Part shown: positions 10,109 to 25,510 of the stretch, piece after piece
How positions within the stretch are numbered: position 1 is the stretch's first letter
Layout of the letters: each line of letters begins with the position of its first letter
IMG/VR virus record: IMGVR_UViG_3300031951_001058
Coordinates: 1 to 26,254 of that record
Reading direction: 5' to 3' (one strand)
DNA from: a virus
Length of the DNA stretch: 26,254 nucleotides
The notes under the pieces: generated by a model
Seen by the model: the letters and a program-made list of their open reading frames with translations, nothing else
Told to the model about the DNA's origin: nothing
The model's database searches: none
Program-made: the position numbers and the translations under genes

Positions 10109-11953
10109 ATGGCAGCGAATTCAATAAATTGTGTAAACTTAGATGAAAAAGATATAGATTTCAATGGTAACATTATAAATTCAGGTGAATATTGGGTTGG
10201 GATGACTGACCCATTTGACCAATTTTTCACTCAAAGAATATGTGTTGAGACAGTGTCCAATATTGATAGTCCTGGAAGTGGTTTATTTGCCACACAACAA
10301 TATACAAGTTGTTATGATTGTGTAAGTAATAATAATGGTTTAATACAATTAAACCCATGTTACCAAACTGTTTTTGAAGTTTTATTTATTAATGTAAGTG
10401 CTTTAACAGAATCACAATATTTGGAAATTTATTCAATTTCTACAGGAGACACTGGACAAGCTTTATATATAGAATTTTTAAATAACGGTACATTACAAAA
10501 AGGGTGTTTTAATAAATCTAAAATAGTAACTGTAAGTACCGCAGAATATGTTCAAATTACTGCTCAACTACAATCTATAGGTCAACAAATTGTAAATGAT
10601 TTAAATTATACTGCTCAAACCGACTGTCAAAGTTGTTTAACAGTCTCTTCGTTTATTTATGAAGTTTCCAATTGCGTGACAGTTGACGAAATTGAGTATG
10701 TTTATTTACCTTATGATTTTCCTTCAGGACATTTAATTTCATATACTGATGGAATTAATGAATTTTGTGGTGTTGTTCGCGGTCTGACCGTTGAAAATGT
10801 TGCAACATATACTTTTGTCACTGATTACGGTCCATGTCGTTTTGAATCTTGTTGTGATACTTGTTTAGAAAATGTAAATAAAAAAGTATTAATTGAAAAT
10901 TGTGTAGATGATACAGACCAACAAGTAGTTTGGGCGTCTCTATTATTTGGTTTGGAGTCAACTAATTTTGAGTTAGGTGGGGGTTGTTTTAAAATTATGG
11001 GAGAGACATCAGACCCTATAAGTTTTGTAGGGTACTTAGATTATGAACCTCATAGTAGTTGCGAATCTTGTCTTACTTGTAATGGAGTTATATATCAATA
11101 TGCTTCTTGTGATGACCCAACAACTCCTGCTGGAGTGATTCAAACAAATCAAATATTACCAAATGGTTTTTCTTTTATAAATCCTTTTGAAGATAAATGT
11201 TGTATTATTTTAGGTTTATCAACGGGGTCACCTATTAGACCAGAATCTTTACCAAGTGTACAACCTTGTGTTTGTGATACTGTATTAGAATATCAAGTAT
11301 TTCCTGCAACAGAATGTTTAACAGGAATACCTGTAGGAGTTTTAACGGATATGAACGCCCAAGATGGTGACATAGTAAAAATAATGTATGGTGAGGTTGA
11401 ATTTTTGTGTGTTCAACTTAATAGTACGGGTAGACTTCCTAGAGTGACATACAATTCTGAACGAGATGTTAATGGTGATACAATTATATATAATAACTGT
11501 ACGGACTGTATAAGTAACAGAGAGATTGGTGTAAGAACTGTAAATTGTGATACTCAAGAATTTAGTATTGTAAATGTTCCATATTCATCATATACAGAAT
11601 TTTTATTTAATCGAGATGATAATTTCATTTTCAATTGTTTTGTTGATGCTGAAGGTTATTGTAGAACCGTAGTTGAACCTTGTCCTCAACCACCAACAGG
11701 ACGTTTATCTATCCCTGTGACAGATTATTTTAGTTGTCCTGTGTGTCGAACGTTTAATCCTGACATACCTCCAACAACAGTATCGGCAGGAACTGAATAT
11801 ACCGTATGTGTGATATGTGAGGACTGTTGTCAATCAGGAACAACTGCAACTGTAATAAAACCTCCTCATCCAACTTGGTCAAGACTTAACGGTGATGCCG
11901 TTGTTTTATTAGACGCGGTACAATTAGGAGGAATGTTTGGATTAAATGCTTAA
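10109..11953 (+). CDS. cysteine-repeat structural protein A, putative adhesin
   Basis: This 614-residue protein is built from about seven beta-rich modules of about 60-95 residues. Most close on a CxxC-type signature: CYDC, CQSC, CDTC, CESCLTC, CTDC, CPVC, CVICEDCC. A second cysteine commonly sits in the middle of a module (EFCGVV, GGCFKI, EFLCVQL). The last about 60 residues (SAGTEYTVCVICEDCC, then PPHP, then LLDAVQLGGMFGLNA) are nearly the same in the next gene. No signal peptide is present, so it probably acts in the virion, where the cysteines may bind metal or form disulfides after release. Its place after hub and connector genes suggests a tail fibre or receptor-binding protein. The family is not one I can name. 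Confidence 0.6.
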   Translation: MAANSINCVNLDEKDIDFNGNIINSGEYWVGMTDPFDQFFTQRICVETVSNIDSPGSGLFATQQYTSCYDCVSNNNGLIQLNPCYQTVFEVLFINVSALTESQYLEIYSISTGDTGQALYIEFLNNGTLQKGCFNKSKIVTVSTAEYVQITAQLQSIGQQIVNDLNYTAQTDCQSCLTVSSFIYEVSNCVTVDEIEYVYLPYDFPSGHLISYTDGINEFCGVVRGLTVENVATYTFVTDYGPCRFESCCDTCLENVNKKVLIENCVDDTDQQVVWASLLFGLESTNFELGGGCFKIMGETSDPISFVGYLDYEPHSSCESCLTCNGVIYQYASCDDPTTPAGVIQTNQILPNGFSFINPFEDKCCIILGLSTGSPIRPESLPSVQPCVCDTVLEYQVFPATECLTGIPVGVLTDMNAQDGDIVKIMYGEVEFLCVQLNSTGRLPRVTYNSERDVNGDTIIYNNCTDCISNREIGVRTVNCDTQEFSIVNVPYSSYTEFLFNRDDNFIFNCFVDAEGYCRTVVEPCPQPPTGRLSIPVTDYFSCPVCRTFNPDIPPTTVSAGTEYTVCVICEDCCQSGTTATVIKPPHPTWSRLNGDAVVLLDAVQLGGMFGLNA

Positions 11954-11958
11954 GCGAG

Positions 11959-11966
11959 ATATTTAT
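11959..11966 (+). promoter_or_regulatory. candidate late promoter element ATATTTAT
   Basis: GATATTTATAAATAAAA lies in the 27-bp gap between the two cysteine-repeat genes, with the core ending 14 nt before the start codon. It also contains TATAAATA (11964-11971), identical to the T4 late promoter core. Confidence 0.5.
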
Positions 11967-11980
11967 AAATAAAATTTAAA

Positions 11981-14752
11981 ATGGCATTTCAAAGAGTATA
12001 TGTAGAACCTTGTGGTAAAGGTTTTGGTTATGATTTATTAATAGATAATTCAGTAACTTCAATTTCGGTAGGTCAAACATATTTTATATCAGGTACTACA
12101 GGTCAACCTCCAAAACAACAACAAATAGTTGGTTGTTTTTCAGTAAAAAACATTAAAGATGTTCAATCAGGACCTGCGGATTCTTTAACATTTAGCACTC
12201 CTTATTTAGGTTGTGAGGAGTGTGAATTAGCCAACGCTAATTTTATCCTATTAAGAACTTGTTTTGATAGTCAATATGGTCAAATAATAATTAATATAGG
12301 TGATATTACCCCTACACCGTCTATAGATGATGTCTTTTTAATGGAAGTGATTATTTTAGATGATTTTGGAGGGTCAATTAGATTAACTTCATGTTTTTCA
12401 GTATCTGGTTTTTTATCATCAAATTTTGATTTTAATCCCACAGGAGTTTTATCATATTCATCAAGAACTGACTGTCAAGATTGTTTAAATAATTCACCAA
12501 TAATTCATGAGGTTTATGACTGTATAGATTCTAATGAACCATATTATATCGCATTTCCATCAACAGGTTTTCAAGACCATTTAATTACTTTCACAGATTT
12601 ATTTGGTATTACACAATATTGTGGAACAGTTAAAGGACAAGTTGGAGATGTTGCAATAACAGGTTTATTAGTGACAGATTTGGGTAAACCAGACGAGACA
12701 GGAATTAAGTGTGATGATTGTTTGGCAAATGTTGCCGAAAAGAAAAAACTACAAAACTGTATAGATTCTGATGAAATTCAAATTGTTTGGGCGTCCTCAT
12801 TATTTCAACCAGATAATTCAACACATTTATCAAACGCTAATGGATGTTATACAGTTCTTCCTGATGTTGTACCACCTGAAGAACCTATAACTGTAAATGA
12901 ACTTGCAAACTTTGACCCTCAAAATAATTGTGAAGATTGTTTGGAATGTTACGGTATAGAATTTGATTTTGTTACTTGTGAAGAAATTGAAGTATTTGAA
13001 CCTGTAAATCAAATTAATACAAATGGAGCTGGTTTTAACTTTTTATCCAGAGAAATAACTATTGACTCCTCAAATAAATTATTTGCGGTTTTTCAAAATT
13101 CAGGTAGAATTGCAAAATATAATCTAGGTACTTTGAGTTGGGAAGAAAATTCTGTACCAGTTTTGGTCAACCCTTGGGGTATTGCAATAAATGAAACCGA
13201 TGGGATTATTTGTGTTTCAAATTTATCGACTAACCAAGTCACATTTTTTGACTATAATAATATTAATCTTAGTAATTCAATATCAGTTCCATTGTTTAGT
13301 GGTCAAAAAGTTTATTTTGACCCTATTGGTTCTAAATTTTATGTAGTGTTCGCAAATACTGGTGTTCCTAACATCGCTGTTTTTGGAGGGTCGAGTTACT
13401 TAGGGATGTCTTATATTATATTTGGTAGTTCATCCGCACGATATACTGATGTTGTTAGAATTGGTACAGGAATTTATTGTTTAAACTATAGTAATCAACA
13501 ACTAGAGGTTTATGATTTAAGCTATACCTTAATTAACACTTATGGTTTAACAGGAAAACCATTGTCTTTAGATGTAGATTATATTAATACTACTATTTAC
13601 ATTGCAACAAATGCTTCAAGGTATATCAAATTTAATTACACCACAATTAGTTTTGTTGACGTAAATTATAGTCCGAATTGTGTGACAGATGAACAAAAAA
13701 TTAAAATTGAACCATCTACTAATCTTTTGTACATCACTGACGTTAATTGTAATCATATCTATATTTTTGATTTGACTACCGACACTTTAGTAAGGTCTGT
13801 AACAAATTTTGATAATCAATACGGTATTAATAGCATTTATGGAATGGCGTTAGATACGTCAAATAATATATGGTTTGGTTCTAATGTTAGAATATTCCAA
13901 ACTCAAACATCTAATCAATTTGTTAATGGGTCTTCAAGTACAAATGAACTTTTAACTGTAGGTCAAACTTTCTTCAATCCTGTATTAAGCGCATGTTGTG
14001 AAGTTACAGATACAAACTCAATTACTAACGACTCATTTCTAAATATAACAGAATATCCTAGTATACTTAATTTTAATGACTGTACAGAATGTTTAAGTAC
14101 TCCTGTAGAATCTTTTGTTTGTATAGACTGTATAACAGGTAATGAGGCTATTTTAGTTGCACCAGCAGGTACTTTTATTATTGGAAATTATGTCCGTTCT
14201 CAATACGGTAACTCAGATTGGTTATGTTTTGAAATTGTTGATAACTACACTGTAGAAAACTACGGTGATTTATTTAAATTAGAATCAAATGGTGTTGTGT
14301 ATTCAAGTTGTGAAGAATGTCAATCAGGAGCGACTATAGGTATTACATTAATCAACACTGAAACATTACAACAAGAACAATACAACATAACTTTAGATGT
14401 ATGGTATCGAATTGTAGGTTTTCCTTTTTCACTACCATTATCTTGTCTTAGTGATAAAAATGGTGTTTGTTATCAGGTGATTAATGCTTGTCCTATCGAT
14501 AATGTACATCCTTTATTTGAACCTGGAGATTTCTTCCTAAATCAATCTTTATGTAGATTAAATAGTGAACGATTACCTGTATCAGCGGGTACTGAATATT
14601 TGGTTTGTCAAATATGTGAAGATTGTTGTGGTTCAGGAACAACCGCAACATTAATTGTTCCTCCTCACCCTGTATGGACAAGACCTAACGGTCAACAAGT
14701 AACATTGTTAGACGCAGTTGCTTTAGGTGGAATGTTCGGATTAAATAATTAA
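11981..14752 (+). CDS. cysteine-repeat structural protein B with inserted beta-propeller
   Basis: This 923-residue paralogue of the previous protein has the same CxxC module ends (CEEC, CQDC, CDDC, CEDCLEC, CTEC, CEEC, CQICEDCC) and nearly the same C-terminus (LLDAVALGGMFGLNN). Between the fourth module and the following CTEC module, residues about 355-650 form what looks like an NHL-type propeller. Seven similar strand sets can be read, such as NPWGIAINETDGIICVSN, KPLSLDVDYINTTIYIATN and SIYGMALDTSNNIWFGSN. Protein A has only a short loop at the matching place, so the propeller appears to be a clean domain insertion. Propellers commonly bind glycans or proteins, so a receptor-binding function at the tail or fibre tip is inferred. 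No signal peptide is present. Confidence 0.65.
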   Translation: MAFQRVYVEPCGKGFGYDLLIDNSVTSISVGQTYFISGTTGQPPKQQQIVGCFSVKNIKDVQSGPADSLTFSTPYLGCEECELANANFILLRTCFDSQYGQIIINIGDITPTPSIDDVFLMEVIILDDFGGSIRLTSCFSVSGFLSSNFDFNPTGVLSYSSRTDCQDCLNNSPIIHEVYDCIDSNEPYYIAFPSTGFQDHLITFTDLFGITQYCGTVKGQVGDVAITGLLVTDLGKPDETGIKCDDCLANVAEKKKLQNCIDSDEIQIVWASSLFQPDNSTHLSNANGCYTVLPDVVPPEEPITVNELANFDPQNNCEDCLECYGIEFDFVTCEEIEVFEPVNQINTNGAGFNFLSREITIDSSNKLFAVFQNSGRIAKYNLGTLSWEENSVPVLVNPWGIAINETDGIICVSNLSTNQVTFFDYNNINLSNSISVPLFSGQKVYFDPIGSKFYVVFANTGVPNIAVFGGSSYLGMSYIIFGSSSARYTDVVRIGTGIYCLNYSNQQLEVYDLSYTLINTYGLTGKPLSLDVDYINTTIYIATNASRYIKFNYTTISFVDVNYSPNCVTDEQKIKIEPSTNLLYITDVNCNHIYIFDLTTDTLVRSVTNFDNQYGINSIYGMALDTSNNIWFGSNVRIFQTQTSNQFVNGSSSTNELLTVGQTFFNPVLSACCEVTDTNSITNDSFLNITEYPSILNFNDCTECLSTPVESFVCIDCITGNEAILVAPAGTFIIGNYVRSQYGNSDWLCFEIVDNYTVENYGDLFKLESNGVVYSSCEECQSGATIGITLINTETLQQEQYNITLDVWYRIVGFPFSLPLSCLSDKNGVCYQVINACPIDNVHPLFEPGDFFLNQSLCRLNSERLPVSAGTEYLVCQICEDCCGSGTTATLIVPPHPVWTRPNGQQVTLLDAVALGGMFGLNN

Positions 14753-14756
14753 TAAT

Positions 14757-15455
14757 ATGAAAAGAAAAATTAGATTAACAGAAACAGAACTTAATTCTCT
14801 AATCAAAAAAATGGTTAAAGAATCTGACTTTACAGTTGAGCCTGAAATAGGTACTCAACCAAGAGAGAAAGACGTAAAATCTATGTTTGGTCAAAAATAT
14901 GGAGCTTACATCCCAATGGATGTTCTTAGATACATGAGAAAGAACCCCGCATTAATCTTCAAAAGATTATATGATATCTATGGTGATAGTGCATATGATT
15001 ACTTAGATAAAGCCAAGGGTAATGATGATTTAATGGAGTCTCATGAAGGTATGAGTAATCGATACATGTTCTTTAGTAATTTAGAACAGATGGAAAGACA
15101 ATGTAATCTTTTATTAGACTTAGACCAAGACACGATAGAAGGAATATTAGAAGACGGTCATGATTGGGCACAAGACCATATTGCGGAAGCAAAAAATAAC
15201 ATGGACCAAGTATTTGATTTTATTATGAATCAAACAAATGGTGGAGATGAATATATGGACGATGAAGAAGAAATGGTAATGATGGAATCTGAGTTATCTG
15301 AAAAAAAGAAAAAAAATGTTCCTACAAATCCATCACTTTGGCAAAGTTGTTTACAATGGGCAAAACAAAGATATAAAGTTTGTCCAAGTGCTTATTGTAA
15401 TGGAGCTGCCGCCAAACGATATAAATCAAAAGGTGGTAAATGGAAAAAGAAATAA
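14757..15455 (+). CDS. putative internal head protein with basic C-terminal tail
   Basis: This 232-residue protein has three parts. The N-terminus MKRKIRLTETELNSLIKKMV resembles short amphipathic leaders also seen on proteins at 17451, 18376 and 16801 (minus strand), followed by VKE/S at residues 20-23, a possible prohead protease site. The middle is acidic and helical with several methionine/acid runs (DDEEEMVMMESE). The C-terminus, NPSLWQSCLQWAKQRYK then PSAYCNGAAAKRYKSKGGKW, is strongly basic and resembles a short tail that I recall from other phage proteins. DNA contact in the capsid is inferred. It is the last gene of the plus-strand tail operon, 4 bp after the propeller gene, and ends in a strong terminator. 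Confidence 0.5.
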   Translation: MKRKIRLTETELNSLIKKMVKESDFTVEPEIGTQPREKDVKSMFGQKYGAYIPMDVLRYMRKNPALIFKRLYDIYGDSAYDYLDKAKGNDDLMESHEGMSNRYMFFSNLEQMERQCNLLLDLDQDTIEGILEDGHDWAQDHIAEAKNNMDQVFDFIMNQTNGGDEYMDDEEEMVMMESELSEKKKKNVPTNPSLWQSCLQWAKQRYKVCPSAYCNGAAAKRYKSKGGKWKKK

Positions 15456-15477
15456 GTGGTTTTTATACCACTTTTTT
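15454..15477 (+). terminator. intrinsic terminator after the tail operon
   Basis: AAGTGGT (15454-15460) pairs with ACCACTT (15467-15473) around the loop TTTTAT and is followed by a T run. The stem begins at the stop codon of the 232-residue gene, so it ends the long plus-strand operon. Confidence 0.75.
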
Positions 15478-15480
15478 TAT

Positions 15481-15624
15481 CTTTATAGGATTGACAGAAA
15501 TAAGGGATACACAAAAGATAATGTTGTATTATGTTGTTATTCTGCTAATATAGGACGAAATGAGAATGATGAAGATACTTGGAAAAAATTTTTAAGTATT
15601 TTACAAATCAGTTTGAATAACTAA
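15481..15624 (+). pseudogene. remnant of an HNH-type endonuclease (C-terminal fragment)
   Basis: A frame ending in TAA at 15622-15624 encodes LYRIDRNKGYTKDNVVLCC and then YSANIGRNENDEDTWKKFL. This closely matches the ending of phage and bacterial HNH-family endonucleases, where 'DRIDN.KGYT.DNVV.CC..CN' precedes a final helix. There is no start codon of its own. Upstream, the frame runs into the terminator and then antiphase through the neighbouring gene. The N-terminal part and the first histidine motif are absent. I read it as debris of a homing endonuclease once located after the tail operon. Confidence 0.6.
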
Positions 15625-15643
15625 ATTAATGTTCCTATATTTG
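15612..15643 (+). promoter_or_regulatory. host-type Bacteroidetes promoter, TTTG-N20-TATATTTG
   Basis: TTTG at 15612-15615 and TATATTTG at 15636-15643 are separated by 20 bases, matching the Bacteroidetes housekeeping consensus TTTG / TAnnTTTG. Transcription would start near 15650 and leave about 15 nt before ATG 15665. The base pattern continues as GTGG, as it does in the promoter before bS21. Confidence 0.7.
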
Positions 15644-15664
15644 TGGTATTGTAAATTTAAAGAT

Positions 15665-16108
15665 ATGTTTAGAGGATTGAAAAGGTTGACAAAAAGATTT
15701 TATGTGAAATGGAAATTAAAGTCAAGGTATAAGTGGTTACAGGAAGAGAGAAAGAATACTGAGGCAGAATCCGTTTGTCTATCAATTTGTAGAAGTTTAA
15801 TTTCCCACCCTACTTCTAAATTTCTGATAGCACCAATCTCGATGAAGAGATATATAAAAAATGAACAATTAGGTTTGTTTATTATATTAGAAGATAGAAA
15901 CATCAGCGTAACTAACCACGTTTACCATTATGATGTGAAACTATCGGAAAGAGATTGGGATAGAATTTGTACTATGTACGATTCAAAAACTGAAAAAATA
16001 AGAGAGGAATATGAATCTGAAATCATGCGTCAGATTCAACACTCTCTAAGAAATATAAAAGATAAGATTGAAAAATTAAATCAAACTTCTCAAGACATTT
16101 CTAACTAA
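15665..16108 (+). CDS. hypothetical protein with basic N-terminus and coiled-coil end
   Basis: I chose ATG 15665 because the earlier ATG at 15629 lies upstream of the promoter's predicted start point. The 147-residue protein begins with a strongly basic segment (MFRGLKRLTKRFYVKWKLKS). A compact middle follows (PISMKRYIKNEQLGLFIILE) and then a charged coiled coil (MYDSKTEKIREEYESEIMRQ). No catalytic motif or signal peptide is visible. It has its own host-type promoter after a terminator, so it is probably expressed early and independently of the late genes. Its last 33 bases overlap the end of the convergent gene on the minus strand. Function is unknown. Confidence 0.6.
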   Translation: MFRGLKRLTKRFYVKWKLKSRYKWLQEERKNTEAESVCLSICRSLISHPTSKFLIAPISMKRYIKNEQLGLFIILEDRNISVTNHVYHYDVKLSERDWDRICTMYDSKTEKIREEYESEIMRQIQHSLRNIKDKIEKLNQTSQDISN

Positions 16109-16801
16109 TCTTTCAACAGATTCGTTTTGTTTTTTTCTTGGTTTGTAACTCACCATTTTAGGTTTGTTACCTGTACCACCTTTAGGATTTGTTTTTTCCG
16201 CTCTTCTTTTTTGAGCACAAGCGGCTTTTTTCTGTGAGTCAGTCATCTTTGATGCAACACCTGCCGCTCTACATTTAGGATATCCTTTATCAGTTGCTTC
16301 AGGTCTACCACATGGAGGATGTCCTCCGCCTTCTTTTTTTCTACAAATATTAACCCAAGGACCTTTAGGTTGTTTACTACCTTTAGGTTTCTTTTTTGTA
16401 CCAAACCAAACCGCCAAATCTTCGTTTAATAAATCGTCAGTAATTTCAATCCATTCACTAACATTTTTTTTGTTATTAACTTTTTGTTTAACTACCTTAA
16501 ATTTATCCGCAAATTCGTCTTCACCTTCTTCTCTATTTTGAATTTTAAAATCTTGATTACTTAGTTTTTTAGAAATCTTTTCTTTACCCCCAATATTTTT
16601 ATTGTTTTTACTCATTATTCCGTCTAAAGAATCGTAATTATTTTTTGCGTTAACATAATCTGAAATTTGTTGATTAAATGGGTCTAAACTATTTTTTAAC
16701 CATTTTCTAAATCCAGGTCTAAAAGGAGGATTATATGAACCTCTTGCACCTGTTTCACTTGTGGCTTCTTTAAGAACTTTTTTAATGGTATCTCTTAACA
16801 T
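16076..16801 (-). CDS. basic protein with DUF5872-like core, putative internal head protein
   Basis: This 241-residue basic protein begins MLRDTIKKVLKEATSE, where LKE/AT (residues 10-14) is a good match to a T4-type prohead protease site. The C-terminal half contains LAVWFGTKKKPKGSKQPKG, PWVNICRKK, HPPCGRPEA, YPKCRAAGVASKMTDSQKK and a basic tail. This matches the small basic protein type found in phages and large algal viruses that I recall as DUF5872; the name is from memory. It ends ESVERLVRNVLRSLI, resembling the leader helices of neighbours. DNA association inside the head is inferred. It is divergent from the 70-residue gene at 16849 and overlaps the plus-strand gene at its 3' end by 33 bp. 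Confidence 0.55.
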   Translation of the reverse strand: MLRDTIKKVLKEATSETGARGSYNPPFRPGFRKWLKNSLDPFNQQISDYVNAKNNYDSLDGIMSKNNKNIGGKEKISKKLSNQDFKIQNREEGEDEFADKFKVVKQKVNNKKNVSEWIEITDDLLNEDLAVWFGTKKKPKGSKQPKGPWVNICRKKEGGGHPPCGRPEATDKGYPKCRAAGVASKMTDSQKKAACAQKRRAEKTNPKGGTGNKPKMVSYKPRKKQNESVERLVRNVLRSLI

Positions 16802-16824
16802 TTCAAATTATTTTCCTTATTATT

Positions 16825-16832
16825 ATAAATAT
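16825..16832 (-). promoter_or_regulatory. candidate late promoter element in divergent gap
   Basis: On the minus strand GATATTTATAATAA (16833 to 16820) lies 23 nt before the start of the DUF5872-like gene. On the plus strand the same DNA reads TATAAATA (16824-16831), 17 nt before ATG 16849. The 47-bp gap may thus serve both directions. Confidence 0.5.
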
Positions 16833-16848
16833 CACATAGAAACAAAAA

Positions 16849-17061
16849 ATGGAAGAAGAACTATTCGGTAAATTATTTAATACAGTTCCACTTGTAGATG
16901 AAAATCATTTAGATACGATTTTAAGTACAATGGACAAACCACACGCAACTTATATACTCGTACAAGCAGTTAAACACGCATATCACTCAGGAGTATACTC
17001 ATTGGGTGAATCCGAAGTAATCTCAAAGTGTATTAGAGTCTTAGGAAAAGAAGAGTCATAA
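16849..17061 (+). CDS. small hypothetical protein
   Basis: This 70-residue protein (MEEELFGKLFNTVPLVDENH...) is helical and acidic at the start. It has TYILVQAVKHAYHSGVYSLG in the middle and ends in KCIRVLGKEES. I recognise no family. It stands alone, preceded by the divergent gap with TATAAATA and followed directly by a hairpin terminator that begins at its stop codon. A compact gene with its own promoter and terminator supports it being real. Its function is unknown. Confidence 0.6.
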   Translation: MEEELFGKLFNTVPLVDENHLDTILSTMDKPHATYILVQAVKHAYHSGVYSLGESEVISKCIRVLGKEES

Positions 17062-17092
17062 AAAAAGGTCAGTTTTATAACTGACCTTTTTT
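17061..17092. terminator. bidirectional terminator between convergent genes
   Basis: GGTCAGTT (17067-17074) pairs with AACTGACC (17079-17086) around loop TTAT, flanked by six A's on the left and a T run on the right. It can end both the 70-residue gene (+) and the 17113-17451 gene (-). Confidence 0.8.
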
Positions 17093-17112
17093 ATTGTGAT
17101 TTAATTTTTTTA

Positions 17113-17451
17113 TTAGAAGTCCGCACCTTCTCCCGCAGTTGTGTCTTTACCATCTTTACCTGTAGTTGGTTGAGTTCCTAAAGATGCTCCAGTCGGAAGT
17201 TGTTCCGCTGGTTTAGTTGGTAACTTACCAACTTCGCCTCCTTGTGTTGCAGTTTTACCTTTTAATGCGTTTTCGATTGCAGCAATTGTTTTAGAACCTA
17301 ATTTACCATCAACAGTTAATCCCGCTTTAAAAGTATCATTTAATAATTGTTGTAACTCAGTTGCGGTCGCTTCGTTGATTCTTCCTTTGGAAGGTGAATA
17401 CATATTAATGATTCTATTTTTTTCTGATTCTGAAATTGTCATTCTTTTCAT
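17113..17451 (-). CDS. putative internal head protein with peptidoglycan-binding-like domain
   Basis: I chose ATG 17451 (MKRMTISESEKNRIINMY) because the longer frame runs inside the upstream gene. The 112-residue protein starts with a leader like that of its neighbour (ISESEKNRI against INESERERI). RINE/AT follows at residues 24-29, the same INE/AT found at the likely cleavage point of the capsid protein. Residues about 29-64 (ATELQQLLNDTFKAGLTVDG, then KLGSKTIAAIENAL) match the PG_binding_1 fold, which grips peptidoglycan. The rest is a low-complexity tail of Gly, Thr and Pro. It lies 22 bp after the 300-residue gene. I infer that it is packaged and delivered, or tail-located, rather than a free enzyme, since no catalytic domain is visible. 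Confidence 0.6.
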   Translation of the reverse strand: MKRMTISESEKNRIINMYSPSKGRINEATATELQQLLNDTFKAGLTVDGKLGSKTIAAIENALKGKTATQGGEVGKLPTKPAEQLPTGASLGTQPTTGKDGKDTTAGEGADF

Positions 17452-17473
17452 TGTCGTATATTTTTTTATTTTG

Positions 17474-18376
17474 TTATGCTTCACCTCCAACAACGTTTGT
17501 AGATGTTGCAGGACCTGTTGGTGTAGATTTAAGTTTATTATAAATCGCGTCAATCGTTGCTTGGTCCATCGTACCTGATTCCGTAACTCCAACTTGTTTT
17601 TGAACTGATTTAATTCTTGGTGCTAATGATGTTCCTGTTCCACCTCCTGATTGCATTTTAGAACCTGGTTTAGGACATTTCCATCCTGAGTTTTTATATC
17701 CCTCAACATCATTACCCCAACCACATTTTTGTGCGTTTGTAGCAACATCACCACCTTTTGTTGATTGGTCAGGATTTGTTTGTTGTTGTTGAGCTTGTTT
17801 AATAATTTGTTGTGTTCTTCTGTATGATTTAATCATAGGTTGATAAACATATTTATTCCATTCAGAATCATCATCAATATCACCATCTAAATCATTAAAT
17901 AGTGTATATCCTGGGTGGTTCTCAGCATATCTTTTAACAACCGCACATAAATCAGGAATTGTTTGTAGTGAACCAAAAGCTTTACCGATTGCTGCCTCAT
18001 CAGTTCCTAAACCTTCCATTGCGTTCCATAATTGGTCAACAACTCCGTCAATTGCGGAGTCATCCATTGTTGTTTCACCAACACCTTTAGCATTACAACC
18101 CTGTGTAATTTTTTGTGCCGCGTCTTTTGACCCAGGACCACTAAACGCTTGATAAATAAGGTTAGCTGCTCCACCTATGATAGCTCCAGGAATAGCACCG
18201 ACACCCGCGAAAGCCGCTCCACCTGCCGCTCCCGCCGCAGTTGCAGTTCCAACTTTACCCCAATCAATTTCATCCAATTCTTCAGATTCTTTTAAATATT
18301 GTTTTCTTGTTGCATATTCGTGCATTCCAAGAATTCTTTCTCTTTCAGATTCATTTATAGAAAATAAGTTCTTCAT
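17474..18376 (-). CDS. multidomain protein: leader, glycine zipper, annexin-like, PG-binding-like
   Basis: This 300-residue protein begins MKNLFSINESERERILGMHE and has LKE/S at residues 28-31, a possible protease site. Residues 43-78 are a glycine/alanine-rich hydrophobic segment (GTATAAGAAGGAAFAGVGAI...), a glycine-zipper that could insert in a membrane. Residues about 108-180 resemble an annexin repeat: GLGTDE at 122-127, then CAVVKRYAENHPGYTLFNDL. Near the C-terminus, RIKSVQKQVGVTESGTMDQA resembles PG_binding_1 again. It has no signal peptide. The smaller neighbour at 17451 shares its two end modules. A packaged protein that touches the cell envelope during DNA entry fits the modules, but this is inference. 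Confidence 0.6.
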   Translation of the reverse strand: MKNLFSINESERERILGMHEYATRKQYLKESEELDEIDWGKVGTATAAGAAGGAAFAGVGAIPGAIIGGAANLIYQAFSGPGSKDAAQKITQGCNAKGVGETTMDDSAIDGVVDQLWNAMEGLGTDEAAIGKAFGSLQTIPDLCAVVKRYAENHPGYTLFNDLDGDIDDDSEWNKYVYQPMIKSYRRTQQIIKQAQQQQTNPDQSTKGGDVATNAQKCGWGNDVEGYKNSGWKCPKPGSKMQSGGGTGTSLAPRIKSVQKQVGVTESGTMDQATIDAIYNKLKSTPTGPATSTNVVGGEA

Positions 18377-18393
18377 AACATTTTTGTTTATTA

Positions 18394-18401
18394 ATAAATA
18401 T
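18394..18401 (-). promoter_or_regulatory. candidate late promoter element ATATTTAT
   Basis: On the minus strand GATATTTATTAATAAAC (18402 to 18386) lies 17 nt before the start of the 300-residue gene. It is nearly identical to the element at 8611-8624 on the other strand. Confidence 0.5.
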
Positions 18402-18462
18402 CGTAATCAATAAAAAAAGTACAAATAAACTTTTCTTAATTTAATTTGTTTGTATATGAATT

Positions 18463-18470
18463 ATATTTAT
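18463..18470 (+). promoter_or_regulatory. candidate late promoter element ATATTTAT
   Basis: ATATTTATTTATAA on the plus strand ends 20 nt before ATG 18491. The DNA also reads TATAAATA on the minus strand (18475 to 18468), so direction is less certain here than elsewhere. Confidence 0.4.
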
Positions 18471-18490
18471 TTATAAAGTTGTTTTGAAAT

Positions 18491-19591
18491 ATGAAAAAAT
18501 TAATCTTAATAGTAGTATTAATGATGTTAAGTTTAACGTCATTTTCACAAACATGTACCACATTAGTTGCAAATGATAGAATGGAAACATTCGATTGGTT
18601 TGGGGATTGGTGGTTATTACAATCAAATTCAGGGTTTTATACAAATGCCTCAACATCTCCAACAACAAGTGCCGCAATATATGGACTAGGTTCAGGAACT
18701 TCTGCAATTGAACAGAATTGGTATGTTTTACCAAATATAACGGGATTAAACCCAACTAGTACATATCAATTTAAATTTAGACTTGCATCATATAAATTTT
18801 CATCTTCCGCAACTTCAGGAGGCGTTGACGGGGGAACAAGTCCTGATTTAATTGAAGTTCAGATATCAACTGACGGTGAGGTTACGTACACTTCAGAAAT
18901 AAGAATCAGGGGATTTTCAAACGCATTTTGGGATTACAATACAAATGGTGTAATTAATAAAACCTCAAACGGAGCTCTTACCACATACTCACCCGTTGCG
19001 GGAGGAAATAGAACAACAACAGGTGATGGTTATTCTGTTATAACACTTACAATACCTCCAGGAATTACACAAATAGCCGTTGATGTTTTGGCAAGAGTAA
19101 ATGCCGCAGGTGAAGAATGGTGGTTCGATGATTTTGAATTATATGAAATATTTGATTGTACTCCATTACCAATTGAATTAATTAATTTTGACGGAACAAA
19201 TAATGTTAGTTATAATAAATTATTTTGGTCAACCGCATCTGAAATAAATAACTCACATTTCACTTTAGAAAGAAGTATTAATGGTCAAGATTGGATTACA
19301 GTATCAACCATTAATGCCGCAGGTAATTCAAACACAACACTATCATACGAATATAAAGATTATAGTTATGTAAGAACCCATGTAAATTATTATAGGTTAA
19401 GTCAAACAGATTATGATGGAGTTAAAGAATACTTCAATATAATAGCAATTCAACCTGATGATACAAATAGTAGTTGTGACGAGTTCGAATATTTTAGTTT
19501 GTCAGGAGTAAAAATTGATATTAATCAAGTACCGACAGGAATTTATTTAAGAAAATGTGATGGTATTGTAGAAAAAATATTTAAACCATAA
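18491..19591 (+). CDS. secreted Bacteroidetes-type protein with T9SS-like C-terminus
   Basis: This 366-residue protein starts with a clear signal peptide (MKKLILIVVLMMLSLTSFSQ), probably cut just before Gln20, as in many Bacteroidetes exported proteins. Residues about 21-220 form a jelly-roll or MAM-like domain (NWYVLPNITGLNPTSTYQF; EEWWFDDFELYEI). Residues about 225-320 match the host-type module 'LPIEL..F...W.TASE.NN..F..ERS..G..W' ending in YYRLSQTDYDGVKEY. The last about 38 residues (FEYFSLSGVKI, then QVPTGIYLRKCDG, then VEKIFK) look like a shortened type A sorting domain of the type IX secretion system. This is a host-surface type protein in a phage, so host surface change or exclusion of other phages is inferred. 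Its end overlaps the HNH gene by 11 bp. Confidence 0.7.
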   Translation: MKKLILIVVLMMLSLTSFSQTCTTLVANDRMETFDWFGDWWLLQSNSGFYTNASTSPTTSAAIYGLGSGTSAIEQNWYVLPNITGLNPTSTYQFKFRLASYKFSSSATSGGVDGGTSPDLIEVQISTDGEVTYTSEIRIRGFSNAFWDYNTNGVINKTSNGALTTYSPVAGGNRTTTGDGYSVITLTIPPGITQIAVDVLARVNAAGEEWWFDDFELYEIFDCTPLPIELINFDGTNNVSYNKLFWSTASEINNSHFTLERSINGQDWITVSTINAAGNSNTTLSYEYKDYSYVRTHVNYYRLSQTDYDGVKEYFNIIAIQPDDTNSSCDEFEYFSLSGVKIDINQVPTGIYLRKCDGIVEKIFKP

Positions 19592-20264
19592 TTTTATTTG
19601 ATTTTCTTATATTTTCTTTTCCCCACATTGGTTGAAGATTTGATAGTGACCAACATTTCATAAACTCTTCGTCACCAATTTCTTGTATATTATACACTGA
19701 AATAGGTAATATGTGGTCGACATGCCATTCCCCATAGTTACCCCATGTCATACCGTCTTTAAATTGGTTTTCCAAATGACCAATAAGTTCTTCAGGAGAA
19801 TATTTTAGAACTTCAAAATAATGACCATTCTTTTGTACATTATTCTCTTTTAATACTTGGTAGATTGCAGTTCTGAAATTATTAATTAATTTATAAATGG
19901 GGTCGTTTGCTTTACGAGTTTTTTCGTAAGTTCTTTTATTTTTTCTATGTCTATCTATATTTTTATCTCTCCATTCTTTATGATATCCATTAAGATAATC
20001 TCTATTTTCTTTAGACCATTTTTGGTGACTTTCTGAAAGTCTTGTTTTATTTTTTTCTCGATATTTTTTATCAGAAACTTTTTTACCTCCTAAAAATTTT
20101 CTTCCGCTCCCTTTAATATTAACACCATTCTCTTTTAATATTCTACTAATTGTAAACGTAGACCAACCAAACTTTTTAGATATTTCGCGCAATCCTTTAA
20201 GTTCATCAACGAACATTTTTTTTATTTCAGTAATCTCTTGTTCTGTGGGGATAATCTTATTCAT
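19581..20264 (-). CDS. free-standing HNH homing endonuclease with N-terminal HTH
   Basis: I chose ATG 20264 (MNKIIPTEQEITEIKKMF); the longer frame runs into the promoter-like gap. The 227-residue protein has an N-terminal helix-turn-helix for site recognition (LREISKKFGWSTFTISRILK). A lysine- and arginine-rich linker follows, and then a C-terminal HNH nuclease of the phage type: FEVLKYSPEELIGHLENQF, DGMTWGNYGEWHVDHILPIS (HVDH near residues 179-182), then CWSLSNLQPMWGKENIRKSN. The catalytic His-Asp-His and final Asn are present, so it looks active. It sits just after the capsid gene and its terminator, a common place for homing endonucleases in T4-like phages. It is not inside an intron that I can see. 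Confidence 0.85.
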   Translation of the reverse strand: MNKIIPTEQEITEIKKMFVDELKGLREISKKFGWSTFTISRILKENGVNIKGSGRKFLGGKKVSDKKYREKNKTRLSESHQKWSKENRDYLNGYHKEWRDKNIDRHRKNKRTYEKTRKANDPIYKLINNFRTAIYQVLKENNVQKNGHYFEVLKYSPEELIGHLENQFKDGMTWGNYGEWHVDHILPISVYNIQEIGDEEFMKCWSLSNLQPMWGKENIRKSNKIMV

Positions 20265-20269
20265 ATAAT

Positions 20270-20277
20270 ATAAATAT
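20270..20277 (-). promoter_or_regulatory. ATATTTAT element close to HNH start
   Basis: The minus strand reads ATATATTTATATTATATG, with the core only 5 nt before the HNH start codon. The spacing differs from the 14-23 nt of other copies, so it may be chance in A+T-rich DNA. Confidence 0.3.
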
Positions 20278-20320
20278 ATTATATTATTACAAAAAAACAA
20301 CTATTTAATTTTAATAATAA

Positions 20321-20347
20321 AAAAAGGTCAGATTTCTCTGACCTTTT
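20321..20347. terminator. terminator downstream of the capsid gene
   Basis: GGTCAGA (20326-20332) pairs with TCTGACC (20337-20343) around loop TTTC, with A's on the left and T's on the right. On the minus strand it follows the capsid stop by 23 bases and ends in a T run, so it should stop head-operon transcripts before the HNH gene. Confidence 0.8.
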
Positions 20348-20369
20348 AAAGATTTATTTAAAGATTTGA

Positions 20370-22247
20370 TTATCTCAATTCTTGTAAATCAAATGTACGA
20401 ACACCATCAACAGTAATACGTGCGTAGAAGCGGTTGTTCACCATCTTTTTCGCGTATCTTGTCATAATACCTTTGATAGGTGTGAAGTTGAATGGGTTGT
20501 ACATTGTAGGTGTTAATTGTAGAGGTACATACGGTGCGTAGATGTAACCTGTGTCTAACAATGATGTTCCTTTGTGCCCGATTAACACTTGGTTAGGTGG
20601 GAAGTAAGGGTCACGGTAAACTTGGTAACGTCCTGCAAGAGTACCAACTCTTTCAATACCCATGTTGTATTGGTCTTGCTCAGGAGACGCGTTAGATACG
20701 TGGAAGTATTCTAAATCGTCGAAGATTGCAGAAACCTCAGATGATACAACAATCCAGTTAGCTCCACCACGAAGTGTAGACTTGTGGATTTGTGCTGACA
20801 ATTGGTTGATTGCAGTAATCAATGTTTGATTCCAATCTTTCTGAGTGTAAGAAGTTGTTAAACCTTGAACTCTTCTCCATCCGTTGTAATCCCAACGTAG
20901 GTTCCAAGCCGCTCCTTTACGTAAGTCACGTAAGATTTCACGGTCAATTTCAGCCGCAACTTGTTCAGAAAGAAGAGCCGTTAACTCAGCTTCTGCGTCA
21001 ATGTTGTGGAATGCCGCTACGTCTTGAGCAAGTTCTGGAGACCACTGAGCTCTTAACTTTCTTTCAGTTACAGTAACTGTTACTGATTGAAGGTCAAAAG
21101 ATACCTCACCAATCTTATCTTCGAACTCAAGTTCTTCGTAACGTCTGAATACCGCAGTTAAACATGTATCTCCTGTAAGAGCCGCAGTAGCCCCATCAGC
21201 AAATGTTGTTCCTGTGTAACCATCTAAAGTACCATCACCACATGTTGCACATACTGGACAAGATAAATCCATTTCTAAATAGATACATCCGTCAGGAGTA
21301 CAAATGTCTTGATAAGTACCACCGTTTCCTTTGTCAGCCCAAGTAGCAGTTGCACGTTTAGTGTAAAGACCGTTAACAATACCTTGACCATATTGTTGTG
21401 TAACAACACGGAAAAGAATTGACTTTGGTTTTGAAGTATCTCCATCTACATAGAATGGATTACAAGTTGAAGCGGTGCTCACTAAATCACACTCATTAGA
21501 CGCAAATAAACGAAGGTCAGACAAGAAAGTTTCTGTGTCATACTCGTTACCATCAGGACCAATCATTTTACCAAGACCGTCTGGTGCGAAACCACAAAGT
21601 CTTACGATAAGTTTTCTTACATTTAAACCATCAAGGTCTACTGTAGTAGCTGAAAGAGGTGTTAATACTCCATTTTCCCATACTACAACGTCTGCATTAA
21701 CAGTAACTGCTGACCAACGACCTTTAGAGTAGTCAAACAACCCTGGAGGGTCTAATTCAGGTTCGTTACCTTCGTAGAATAAATCGTAAAGGTTTTTAGC
21801 GTAAGCTCCTGCCCCTGTGTAACCATTTGATGGGTCACCAGGATAGTTACCAGGAGAACCGATAGGAGCGTAGTGGTCACCACTGAAATCTCCTGCAGTA
21901 CCACCTGAGTAACCTTGGATTTTAGGTACGAAGTAGAACAATTTACCGATAGGTAAGTTCATAGCTTGTACAGAAACGATATCATTCGCTAATAATTTAG
22001 AGAATACACGTCTAACGATAGGGAATACTACAGTTTCGAATGAACCTGAGCTACCGTCAGAAGTTGCTTCATTGATTAGGAAAGACGCTTGGTTCTCATA
22101 TAACTGAGCTACGTTTTCTTTTAGGTGGCCTTTAAGACCTTCTAGGAACCCTAATCTGTCCCATTTGTTAATTGTATCTTCTTTGATAACCTTAAGGTGC
22201 TTAAGACCTATGTTACCAACAAGACCTGATTCTAATAATGCTCCCAT
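20370..22247 (-). CDS. gp23: major capsid protein, T4 gp23-like
   Basis: This 625-residue protein is the HK97-fold major head protein of a T4-like phage. The N-terminus (MGALLESGLVGNIGLKHLKV...) is the scaffold-contact segment. INE/AT at residues 58-62 is the likely prohead protease cut, followed by a GS-rich turn and FPIVRRVFSKLLANDIVSVQ then AMNLPIGKLFYF. That matches the gp23 block with 'RR....L.A.DI..VQPM..P.G..F'. The C-terminus YAPYVPLQLTP, then TRYAKKMVNNRFYARITVDG, also matches gp23. An insertion around residues 310-350 has CTPDGC and CPVCATC, unusual in this family and possibly metal-binding. The gene looks richer in G+C-containing codons than its neighbours, as expected for high expression. 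Confidence 0.95.
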   Translation of the reverse strand: MGALLESGLVGNIGLKHLKVIKEDTINKWDRLGFLEGLKGHLKENVAQLYENQASFLINEATSDGSSGSFETVVFPIVRRVFSKLLANDIVSVQAMNLPIGKLFYFVPKIQGYSGGTAGDFSGDHYAPIGSPGNYPGDPSNGYTGAGAYAKNLYDLFYEGNEPELDPPGLFDYSKGRWSAVTVNADVVVWENGVLTPLSATTVDLDGLNVRKLIVRLCGFAPDGLGKMIGPDGNEYDTETFLSDLRLFASNECDLVSTASTCNPFYVDGDTSKPKSILFRVVTQQYGQGIVNGLYTKRATATWADKGNGGTYQDICTPDGCIYLEMDLSCPVCATCGDGTLDGYTGTTFADGATAALTGDTCLTAVFRRYEELEFEDKIGEVSFDLQSVTVTVTERKLRAQWSPELAQDVAAFHNIDAEAELTALLSEQVAAEIDREILRDLRKGAAWNLRWDYNGWRRVQGLTTSYTQKDWNQTLITAINQLSAQIHKSTLRGGANWIVVSSEVSAIFDDLEYFHVSNASPEQDQYNMGIERVGTLAGRYQVYRDPYFPPNQVLIGHKGTSLLDTGYIYAPYVPLQLTPTMYNPFNFTPIKGIMTRYAKKMVNNRFYARITVDGVRTFDLQELR

Positions 22248-22285: not shown

Positions 22286-23803
22286 TTATCTTAGTTTACC
22301 CATTAAATCTTTCATTCTAAGGAATTGAGGATTTTCATAAGTTTTTGACTCAATTAAGTTAACCGCTGAACCTGTTGAAGGTGCTTTTTCAATTACACGT
22401 TCGATAGACTCATTCATTGGTTGACTTGTCGTAGTTGAAAGCTCATCTTTAATGGTCTTATACAAATTCTTAGATTCTTTAATAGTTTCAACTCCATCGA
22501 ATCTTCTAAGAATGTTGATTTTTTCTTGTTTTGATGTTGAGTGTTCAGTGAACAAACGTGTAGCGTATGCTAAGTTTGAGTTGAATACCGCAACTTCGTT
22601 TAGTTTGTTTCTGAAGATGTTAAGTGCTTTTCTGTATTCTTCATTCTTCTCTCTAAGGATTTGTAACTCTCTTAAAGTTTCACCTTCTTTAATTGCGGTG
22701 TTTGCTTTTGAATGAGCTCTTGGTTTTGGTAAACCACCCTTTCTGAAATTAGAACCACTACCATAAGTTCTTGAAGCTTCTTTAGTCTCCATTTTCTTAG
22801 GTTTGTGTTTGAATTCACCGTCAAGAGTTTCAGTATCTTTGTAAACGTTAACTTTCTTAGCGTTTCCTGTACCCATAGTCTTGTCAGATTTTTTCTTAAC
22901 CACTTTAAAACCTCCACTTGTATTAGGATTTTTAGAATAGATGTCTTTTTTAGGACCTTTTCCGATTCCAACGCCTTTTGGTTTAACTGTTTTTTTAGAC
23001 TCCATCATGTAGTCGTCTTCTTCATACATTTCTTCTTCCATATCTTCTTCGTCATCCTCAAAAGAAATTTCGTAGATTGTTTCTGAATCCATACCTTCCA
23101 TCATTTCGTCTTCTAAGTCTGCGTCACCGTAGAACTCTTCTTCTTCCATCATTTCGTCTTCATCTTCCATCATTTCTTCGAAGTCCATTTCTTCTTCGTC
23201 TTCGAAATCCATGTCCTCTTCATCTTCGTAATCCATATCTTCTTCATCTTCATCTCCGAAAACTTTCGATACGATTGATTCAATAGACTCATCTTCTTCG
23301 TCCATTTCTTCATAACCTTCGTTCTCTTCGTCCCACATTTCGAACATTTCCTCTTCTTCTCCTTCTTGAACAATCATGTATTCTTTGTTTGTTTCGTTAT
23401 CCTTAAGATTAATATTTCCAGCACCGTCTTTTTTAACGATGATTTTATCTTCAGGGTCCATCAATTCGAATACACGAAGAACTTGTTCATCGGATTGACC
23501 TGTCAAGTCGATTGTGTCCATAGAGTCCATGGCCATCATATCTTCGTCTTCATTATCAGTATCCATGTCTTCACCTTCTTCGTCGTCCATTTCTGGCTCT
23601 TCCATTTCAGGCTCTTCCATTTCAACATCTGTTTCAACCTCTGCATCTTCTTCTTCTTGTTCAGATAGAGATTCTTTTACTAGTTCTTTGATTTCTTCCT
23701 TCATTGTTGAAGCAAGTATTCCTTTTGCGTTTTCAGCAACCGCTTCTTCCAAATTTTTCATTTGGATGATTGCTTCTTCTACTAAAGATTTTTCTTTTGC
23801 CAT
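22286..23803 (-). CDS. gp22: prohead core scaffold protein, gp22-like
   Basis: I chose ATG 23803 (MAKEKSLVEEAIIQMKNLEE); the longer frame crosses the promoter-like element. The 505-residue protein has a helical N-terminus, then about 200 residues made mostly of Glu, Asp and Met (EEDMDYEDEEDMDFEDEEE). A lysine-rich middle (KTVKPKGVGIGKGPKKD) is followed by a helical C-terminus (ILREKNEEYRKALNIFRNKL ... NPQFLRMKDLMGKLR). Position between protease and capsid genes and the helical C-terminus support a gp22 role: it would form the core on which the capsid assembles and then be degraded by the protease. It is much longer than T4 gp22, mainly because of the acidic tract. The antisense reading frames here are shadows of that tract. 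Confidence 0.8.
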   Translation of the reverse strand: MAKEKSLVEEAIIQMKNLEEAVAENAKGILASTMKEEIKELVKESLSEQEEEDAEVETDVEMEEPEMEEPEMDDEEGEDMDTDNEDEDMMAMDSMDTIDLTGQSDEQVLRVFELMDPEDKIIVKKDGAGNINLKDNETNKEYMIVQEGEEEEMFEMWDEENEGYEEMDEEDESIESIVSKVFGDEDEEDMDYEDEEDMDFEDEEEMDFEEMMEDEDEMMEEEEFYGDADLEDEMMEGMDSETIYEISFEDDEEDMEEEMYEEDDYMMESKKTVKPKGVGIGKGPKKDIYSKNPNTSGGFKVVKKKSDKTMGTGNAKKVNVYKDTETLDGEFKHKPKKMETKEASRTYGSGSNFRKGGLPKPRAHSKANTAIKEGETLRELQILREKNEEYRKALNIFRNKLNEVAVFNSNLAYATRLFTEHSTSKQEKINILRRFDGVETIKESKNLYKTIKDELSTTTSQPMNESIERVIEKAPSTGSAVNLIESKTYENPQFLRMKDLMGKLR

Positions 23804-24201: not shown

Positions 24202-24924
24202 TTAATATCCTAAATAATCGGATAATTTTTTCATTAAGTCAAGAGATTTGTTTGCTGAAGGTCCAACTTCTCTTTCTGCCCTCATTCTATTTTCTTCTTC
24301 TAAGTTCTCCTCAAACTGATGTCTTCCATCGGGTTCTAAGAAAAGATAAGCTCCTGGGGTGGATGGGGATGATACCAAGTCAAAACAAATTAATTCAAAA
24401 TCATCTTGAACTTCATTTTGTTCCCCAACTTTTTTAAGTGAACCAACCCCTCTTGAAGAGATTCCTAATGTAACACCTTGTCTTAAATAATTTGCAGCTA
24501 AATCTCCTTTAGTTGAACAAACTCCTCTTTCATGGAAACCAGGACTTGTTAATAGTTTAAGTTTTCCCATAAGTACAGGTCCGTCCCACCATATATCAGT
24601 TATAATATGAGATACTCTATCTAAGTCAATTAAAGATGATTCAGGGTGGTTTAACTCAGAAAGTGATGTACCTTTCTGAATCATCTTTTTGTAGTTTTCA
24701 GCTTCTCTTTTTAAAATTCTTTCAGGGTAAATTCTACCGTTTCTATTTGGAGTATTGTATTTTTGTAATACCGCATAAAACTCAAATGGTTTTGAGTAAT
24801 CCAAAAGATTTTTAGATTCCATGATATATTGATTATTGTCGGTTTTAGGATTTATATATCCTGCATCATACTCAATCAATATCCCTTTTCCTGTTTGGCC
24901 AGGTTGTATAATTTGTAAACTCAT
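24202..24924 (-). CDS. gp21: prohead core protease, T4 gp21-like (peptidase S77 type)
   Basis: This 240-residue protein matches the gp21 serine protease that matures T4-like proheads. Visible motifs are NRNGRIYPERIL (residues 60-71), ELNHPESS with the likely catalytic His93, VSHIITDIWWDGP, and LGISSRGVGS (residues 153-162) containing the catalytic serine. FDLVSSPSTPGAYLF follows, the usual end of the fold. Its own N-terminal YIME/SKN (residues 33-39) may be a self-processing site. It is followed by DUF4494-like, scaffold and capsid genes, the T4 21-22-23 order. It would cut scaffold, capsid and internal proteins after [LIV]xE. Confidence 0.92.
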   Translation of the reverse strand: MSLQIIQPGQTGKGILIEYDAGYINPKTDNNQYIMESKNLLDYSKPFEFYAVLQKYNTPNRNGRIYPERILKREAENYKKMIQKGTSLSELNHPESSLIDLDRVSHIITDIWWDGPVLMGKLKLLTSPGFHERGVCSTKGDLAANYLRQGVTLGISSRGVGSLKKVGEQNEVQDDFELICFDLVSSPSTPGAYLFLEPDGRHQFEENLEEENRMRAEREVGPSANKSLDLMKKLSDYLGY

Positions 24925-25461: not shown

Positions 25462-25493
25462 TTTGTGTGATTAGTCAAAATTTATTATCTTTG
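25462..25493 (+). promoter_or_regulatory. host-type Bacteroidetes promoter, TTTG-N20-TATCTTTG
   Basis: TTTG at 25462-25465 and TATCTTTG at 25486-25493 are 20 bases apart, a full match to the Bacteroidetes housekeeping form. The predicted start is near 25500, leaving only about 10 nt before the bS21 ATG. GTGG follows the -7 box, as in the promoter at 15612. Confidence 0.75.
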
Positions 25494-25510
25494 TGGATAT
25501 TTGTATATAT

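Follow-up and report, generated by a model that had tools for sequence, protein, structure and literature searches.

Recurrent N-terminal leaders ending at a presumed prohead protease site mark candidate head cargo of a T4-related phage

The virus record IMGVR_UViG_3300031951_001058, a stretch of 26,254 bases that was analysed whole and is called the window below, encodes a Gp23-family major capsid protein and, in its neighbourhood, four proteins of 232, 241, 112 and 300 residues that each begin with a short leader ending in a possible prohead protease site. Are these four proteins packaged in the phage head? In T4, internal proteins reach the core by means of propeptides of 10-19 residues, which gp21 cleaves off after [LI]xE (PMC9026906; this paper and the two others cited below, PMC5694885 and PMC4360716, are cited from excerpts). 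All the sites proposed in the first-pass annotation lie where it had put them (a slash marks the presumed cut): INE/AT at residues 58-62 of the capsid protein and 25-29 of the 112-residue protein, LKE/AT at 10-14 of the 241-residue protein, LKE/S at 28-31 of the 300-residue protein and VKE/S at 20-23 of the 232-residue protein. So does the [LI]xE[ST]E start that it had seen in three of the four, which reads LTETE, ISESE and INESE in the proteins of 232, 112 and 300 residues, respectively. As set out below, the comparative data suggest that the four proteins are probably head cargo of a T4-related phage, with leaders that would target them to the capsid and be removed by the protease.

The leaders belong to families, whose nearly identical members recur on otherwise unrelated proteins of large phages with a distant relationship to T4. 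Capsid homology provided the loci (the best 80 of at least 599 relatives) and nine long contigs that were read end to end, which together with the window gave 1956 open reading frames (ORFs). Two types of leader, A and B, recur on different proteins in this set. Leader A reads like MKKIIRLTESDLTRIVKRVIKE, with the cut at its end, and has shortened forms such as MNLDRIIKKIIKE; leader B, which is also found in shortened forms, reads like MKKLYFLDEEEKNRILNLHESATKRQYLSE and follows the pattern I[TN]E.EK.RIL.LHE.ATK.QYL.E/. Within the window, leader A is found on the 232-residue protein and leader B on those of 112 and 300 residues, while the leader of the 241-residue protein is short and A-like. 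Profile models of A and B, seeded from the same ORFs that were searched (43 and 32 seeds), matched 59 and 49 N-termini, respectively, at an E-value of 0.01 or better, with seven and zero internal matches and none in reversed proteins. Of the seven internal matches to leader A, six separate two bodies, as though two leader proteins had been fused, and the seventh is C-terminal. A looser set comprises 151 leader proteins in 58 body clusters, 23 of them within one 296-kb contig; it includes false leaders, such as that of a nuclease with a helix-turn-helix (L046:4547-5233), and a few wrong cut positions (two leader-B proteins of contig G001). The search for leaders across related phages that had been proposed at the outset thus finds them on many unrelated bodies, and because of this the case for cargo is stronger than the first-pass annotation could know. 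The bare motif is weak, since [LIV]xE[AST] occurs at residues 8-35 in 212 of 1503 non-leader ORFs (14.1%) and [LIV]xEAT in 21 of the 1503 from related contigs; the sites in the window stand above chance because their leaders belong to recurrent families. One cluster linked by peptidoglycan-binding bodies carries leader B in eight members and leader A in one, and leaders look exchangeable between related bodies. In nine leader-A genes of G001, identical leader residues use different codons in 35% of cases, against 46% expected for random codons. These codon differences indicate a constraint that is mostly, though not wholly, on the protein and less on the DNA.

The same leaders emerge when no motif is supplied. 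We compared the first 30 residues of proteins within a genome where the remaining bodies are non-homologous, and treated residues 31-60 and the last 30 in the same way. Pairs scoring at least 55 were found at the N-terminus in G001 (74), G004 (16), G007 (6), G008 (3), G003 (2), G002 (2), Flavobacterium phage immuto (9), 41 kb of LR756508 (11) and T4 (2), with no middle or C-terminal pair in any of these. One of the two T4 pairs is IPII/IPIII, which share a known targeting leader. The control, a 262-kb phage (G044), had no N-terminal or middle pair and three C-terminal ones, which are acidic tails; at a score of 45 it gave two N-terminal, three middle and seven C-terminal pairs. Individual pairs were listed for five of the ten genomes, and the non-leaders among these are one pair in G002, two in immuto and one in T4. 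Two more leader types came to light in immuto, MKKQILSEQFxRMQxLAGIITE/ and MENFDLKKFLVENKLTxNSKILKE/, both of which end in [LI]xE. The leader genes of immuto (MW353176), whose host is Flavobacterium sp. LMO8, occupy 1803-2318, 25470-25865, 103762-104310, 111631-112095, 117587-118588 and 118588-118887. In LR756508, a 484-kb phage (L363), the products of many genes around that of the capsid start with a leader-like helix, for example MRLTERRLKKIVKEEIDKVLQE, or with a short form such as MRLKEILLE.

The end of leader A is marked by a glutamate. A core model of leader A that ends four residues before the presumed cut, and whose 15 seeds were chosen with the glutamate present, places a glutamate at the predicted position in 116 of 117 unrelated body clusters (22/22 from capsid-selected contigs and 85/86 from contigs selected on the first nine leader residues). 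For clusters without model seeds, the count is 100 of 101 overall, 10/10 in the capsid-selected contigs and 79/80 in L142-L219. The sole cluster that lacks the glutamate at this place has LSE/A two residues later. As to selection, L142-L219 come from a search with the first nine leader residues and a ranking by tblastn that used the full leader, and L281-L359 were fetched with a pattern that may include the glutamate. In the 104 clusters from capsid-selected contigs and from those selected on the first nine leader residues, P3 is occupied by I in 90, L in seven, V in six and M in one, and the entropy is about 0.1 bit at the glutamate, 2.3 at the next residue (Q in 55 of 104) and 3.6-4.1 beyond, i.e., conservation largely stops after the glutamate. 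In leader B, [LIMVF]xE is present in 38 of 42 tails versus 30% in shuffles; this count took 42 of 49 proteins, no core being recognised in the other seven. Two cuts are possible, because many leaders also hold an earlier LTE/S, ISE/S or INE/S.

The relatives of the four proteins, found by their bodies, tell a similar story. In the family of the 232-residue leader, Glu22 is the sole invariant column of 31 aligned sequences, and relatives found by the RYMFFSNL body alone have [LIVM]xE upstream of that body in 29 of 29 cases. AlphaFold predicts a leader helix followed by a low-confidence stretch, in a model of the whole protein with a mean predicted local distance difference test score of 62.8 and no meaningful Foldseek match. 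Locus L026 encodes both halves of this protein as separate leader proteins, and the fusion in the window retains LME/S at the joint. The DUF5872-like label that had been given to the 241-residue protein does not hold: the match, which is below threshold (E-value 0.015; 16.3 bits vs. a Pfam gathering score of 27.5), belongs to the C-terminus of the 232-residue protein, while the 241-residue protein has no Pfam DUF5872 match at E-values up to 1 and matches only phrog_23735 in PHROGs. Among 46 relatives of the 241-residue body, 36 show [LIVM]xE with A or S as the next residue within the first 45 residues, and the leader ahead of this motif varies widely. In several loci (L047, L054, L068, L071, L017 and G008:24580-26211), a body of this type is fused with another one, and a full leader A stands between them, in a polyprotein-like arrangement. 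Seven of eight relatives of the 300-residue body carry leader B and the eighth a different leader, and two of four relatives of the 112-residue body have N-termini other than A or B; these other N-termini again contain [LIV]xE. Among 50,697 phage records, the 232-residue protein matched three, one of them over the RYMFFSNL body, and there was no match to the 241- or 300-residue protein. A tblastn search of the same records with composite leader peptides gave no match, which the shortness of the queries may explain. A search of openly licensed PubMed Central papers found none that contains the four leader strings used as queries, and none of the titles and abstract starts listed in further searches there announces such leaders.

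The presumed protease motif is also conserved in the head proteins themselves. In the capsid protein, INE/A is kept in 79 of 79 aligned relatives. The alignment of the scaffold-like protein, which kept 58 of 64 matches, has eleven conserved [LIVM]xE columns in all: LVKE/S, TIKE/S and PMNE/S (58/58 each), NLIE/S (56/58) and seven others, four of which are without a small residue after the motif (E, I, K or V). At site 48, the residue after the presumed cut (P1′) is Q in 39 of 58 sequences, as in leaders. The density of [LIVM]xE[SAGTQN] is 2.2 per 100 residues in the scaffold versus 0.65 in 396 other long ORFs, a difference that is in part compositional, the scaffold being rich in glutamate. A Pfam search with the scaffold-like protein found no family above cut-off. 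Its N-terminal helix ends in LVKE/SLSE/Q, which resembles IVKRVIKE/Q of leader A, and when 495,899 non-leader windows are ranked for likeness to leader A, the best one of the scaffold takes 77th place; many, not all, of the 40 top-ranking windows are other leader-like helices. In view of this resemblance, leader A may be homologous to the scaffold N-terminus or mimic it. The scaffold-like protein of immuto ends in VSRWQKLAGIIK, and one immuto leader type reads FRRMQKLAGIITE (L082:18707-19948; immuto 25470, 111631); possibly, this leader type mimics the C-terminus of the scaffold.

Who carries leaders? Leader A is present in all 13 leader-selected contigs over 100 kb (3-18 matches each at E-values up to 0.1; near-duplicates among the leader-selected contigs are G012/G013 and probably G017/G018) and in eight of nine capsid-selected contigs (weakly in G002, E-value 0.013), and is absent from all 19 random viral contigs (minimum length 40 kb). 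A strict leader pattern occurs in 39 stretches of prokaryote genomes totalling 257 billion bases; four of these stretches were confirmed, all in metagenome-assembled genomes and three with a longer leader variant; similar but non-identical patterns gave at least 600 matches in viral contigs, with at least 459 confirmed. The S77 prohead protease is encoded in nine of nine capsid-selected long contigs, as expected because these were chosen beside the capsid gene. It is encoded in 16 of 26 leader-selected contigs of at least 62 kb (11/13 over 100 kb) and in 2 of 19 random viral contigs of at least 40 kb (2/5 over 100 kb). In G013, one of the two large contigs that miss it, leader positions are those of G012 shifted by a constant 26,637 bases, and the contig stops short of where the protease gene would lie. 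Co-occurrence with the protease supports packaging and is insufficient alone, because the size-matched contrast is 11/13 versus 2/5.

As for the bodies, two sets of representatives (58 and 95, perhaps overlapping slightly) were scanned with Pfam and PHROGs, with 25 of 30 families seen in one of the PHROG results. The few known domains are peptidoglycan binding, lysozyme-like, SLT (weak), L,D-transpeptidase, thioredoxin and leucine-rich repeats. No recognised replication-type enzyme with a genuine leader was found among these bodies, which gives no sign that leaders are equally common on clearly non-virion proteins, in a test of limited power because most bodies have no recognisable domain. The only replication-type enzyme encountered, an HNH nuclease, proved to be a false leader call.

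In the body of the 300-residue protein, one region about the size of an annexin repeat resembles such repeats in profile searches and in its predicted structure. Whereas annexins have four repeats, this protein has one, and its Pfam Annexin match (E-value 0.0036, 17.8 bits) is under the gathering cut-off of 25. A profile of the family searched against PDB finds annexins first, with an E-value of 2.7e-13 summed over repeats, the best single repeat scoring 0.06 and 0.2 in the two alignments shown. For a template-free model, the nearest structures were almost all annexins or annexin fusions, with a best Z of 7.9 (root-mean-square deviation 1.9, 74 aligned), which is below the level that the notes of the structural aligner call safe; Foldseek returned annexins in its top rows, with a best E-value of 0.12 and nothing at 0.001. 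Among nine relatives scanned at E-values up to 0.1, Annexin was matched in three and glycine zipper in two; in the relatives, the glycine stretch is glycine-zipper-like and the C-terminal region resembles peptidoglycan-binding domains. Among the openly licensed PubMed Central papers listed in a search on annexins and phages, some concern bacterial annexins and none a phage annexin.

How does this compare with known systems? As with IPI, IPII, IPIII and Alt of T4, short N-terminal leaders with an [LI]xE motif stand on unrelated bodies, in phages that also encode an S77 protease and a Gp23 capsid. In contrast to T4, the leaders have 22-30 residues rather than 10-19, there are many more carriers per genome and more kinds of cargo, copies also occur at fusion joints and C-termini, and P1′ is mostly Q. 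The C-terminal leader-like helices in the family of the 241-residue protein have a parallel in T4 Alt, which is cut at both ends (PMC5694885). Models of leaders A and B matched no T4 N-terminus better than an E-value of 0.4, and neither IP leader was matched. Because they are not detectably related to T4 leaders, we regard those described here as a putative working analogue of them, a new variant and not a proven member. In phiKZ, 201phi2-1 and SPN3US, many head proteins are likewise cut after Glu by a gp21-like protease, and gp53 and gp54 of SPN3US have an identical N-terminus (PMC5694885); there, however, the motif is S/A-x-E or A-x-E, and propeptides often exceed 100 residues. The Far-T4 phages are also uncultivated phages with a diverged Gp23 and structural genes beside it, but leaders and packaged cargo go unmentioned in the excerpt of PMC4360716. 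With its own diverged Gp23, the window phage would appear to belong among them.

The route suggested by these data, cargo unrelated to that of T4 on the same kind of leader and protease, was already proposed in the first-pass annotation and explains the comparative data best. The leader would be a capsid-targeting propeptide, short and mostly helical, that docks its protein on the scaffold core of the prohead. The S77 protease would then cut after the terminal [LIV]-x-E, leader and scaffold pieces would leave the prohead, and the freed cargo would remain with the DNA and be injected into the host. We lean towards a broader reading as well, namely an open cargo-loading system in which almost any protein can be fitted, for head loading and injection, with one of a small number of interchangeable leaders that seem to copy the presumably protease-cut N-terminal helix of the scaffold.

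Several points weigh against this route. Docking, cleavage, packaging and injection are inferred here from sequence. The leaders mostly have Q at P1′, where the capsid has A and most scaffold sites have S. Those cargo domains that can be recognised are largely of envelope type, which could hint at another destination, and leader genes are scattered and distant from head genes. The size-matched contrast for S77 is weak, some leader contigs are near-duplicates, and the two random contigs with S77 have no leader A. Of the other explanations, a rather unlikely one is that the proteins are protease-processed structural parts of the virion, i.e., minor head or core proteins, and not injected cargo. 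Several leader genes do adjoin the capsid gene in many related loci, and T4 core proteins are also cut (PMC9026906), but a contig may hold up to 23 body clusters, with bodies that are mostly specific to it, unlike a fixed structural set. It is clearly improbable that the leader serves as a tag that docks its protein elsewhere in the infected cell, for instance in a replication compartment or at the membrane or envelope, with the terminal glutamate serving for binding and not for cutting. The scattering of leader genes along large genomes, the peptidoglycan-binding, lysozyme-like, L,D-transpeptidase and thioredoxin domains, and a P1′ unlike that of the capsid site would all fit such a tag, but the conserved stretch stops at [LIV]xE, described for gp21 in the literature (PMC9026906), which these phages also conserve in capsid and scaffold, and T4 provides a known precedent for packaging. 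Chance matches to a loose motif, frequent as it is in non-leader ORFs, have next to no standing against recurrent families, a glutamate that is near-invariant on unrelated bodies against a background frequency of 10%, the lack of matches at an E-value of 0.01 or better in reversed sequences and the control phage without an N-terminal pair at a score of 55.

Features of the window that bear on the four candidate cargo proteins are collected in Table 1. Beyond these, nuclease-like genes with a helix-turn-helix start adjoin the capsid gene, both in the window (19581-20300, minus strand) and in L046:4547-5233; the latter matches phrog_1035, endonuclease VII, and the gene in the window is similar by eye to the one in L046. 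Two long Cys-rich neighbours (10109-14752, plus strand) share a closely similar C-terminal segment ending LLDAV.LGGMFGLN. A 366-residue protein (18491-19591, plus strand) has a signal-peptide-like start, and its C-terminus is reminiscent of a type IX secretion sorting domain, which may point to a Bacteroidota host.

Table 1. Leaders, candidate cargo and head genes in the window
Feature	Positions	Strand	Details
Leader A of the 232-residue protein	14757-14822	plus	residues 1-22; presumed cut after VKE22; predicted helix 9-22
232-residue candidate cargo	14757-15455	plus	two-body fusion; internal LME/S, residues 92-94 (15030-15038)
Short A-like leader of the 241-residue protein	16766-16801	minus	residues 1-12; presumed cut LKE12/AT
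241-residue candidate cargo	16076-16801	minus	
C-terminal leader-like helix of the 241-residue protein	16079-16126	minus	NESVERLVRNVLRSLI; relatives with leader-A-like C-terminal helices
Leader B (short form) of the 112-residue protein	17371-17451	minus	residues 1-27; presumed cut INE27/AT
112-residue candidate cargo	17113-17451	minus	weak peptidoglycan-binding-like domain (PG_binding_3, E-value 0.0058, below cut-off)
Leader B of the 300-residue protein	18287-18376	minus	residues 1-30; presumed cut LKE30/S
300-residue candidate cargo	17474-18376	minus	leader B, glycine-rich stretch, annexin-like repeat
Annexin-like repeat of the 300-residue protein	17831-18070	minus	residues ~103-182; after the glycine-rich stretch
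Gp23-family major capsid protein	20370-22247	minus	PF07068, E-value 3.4e-73, 247.6 bits vs. gathering cut-off 24.4
Presumed capsid cut	22068-22076	minus	INE60/A
Acidic scaffold-like protein	22286-23803	minus	conserved [LIVM]xE/S sites; putative role, from position and composition
Prohead protease, Peptidase_S77 (gp21 type)	24202-24924	minus	PF03420, 82.4 bits vs. cut-off 27; phrog_207, E-value 2.9e-43

What would head cargo of this kind mean for these phages? Among the proteins that phages deliver with their DNA are some that counteract host defences or subvert the host, and they evolve fast and are hard to recognise. In T4, IPI blocks a restriction enzyme and Alt modifies RNA polymerase (PMC9026906). 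With a leader that can be read from sequence, such proteins could be catalogued in uncultivated phages, and the question of head cargo would become testable in one mass-spectrometry run on an isolate. The leaders would also be new tags with which to load proteins into phage heads. If the broader reading of an open cargo-loading system is true, more than 100 orphan clusters, of which one has an annexin-like repeat, become candidates for injected effectors and can be picked out by sequence alone.

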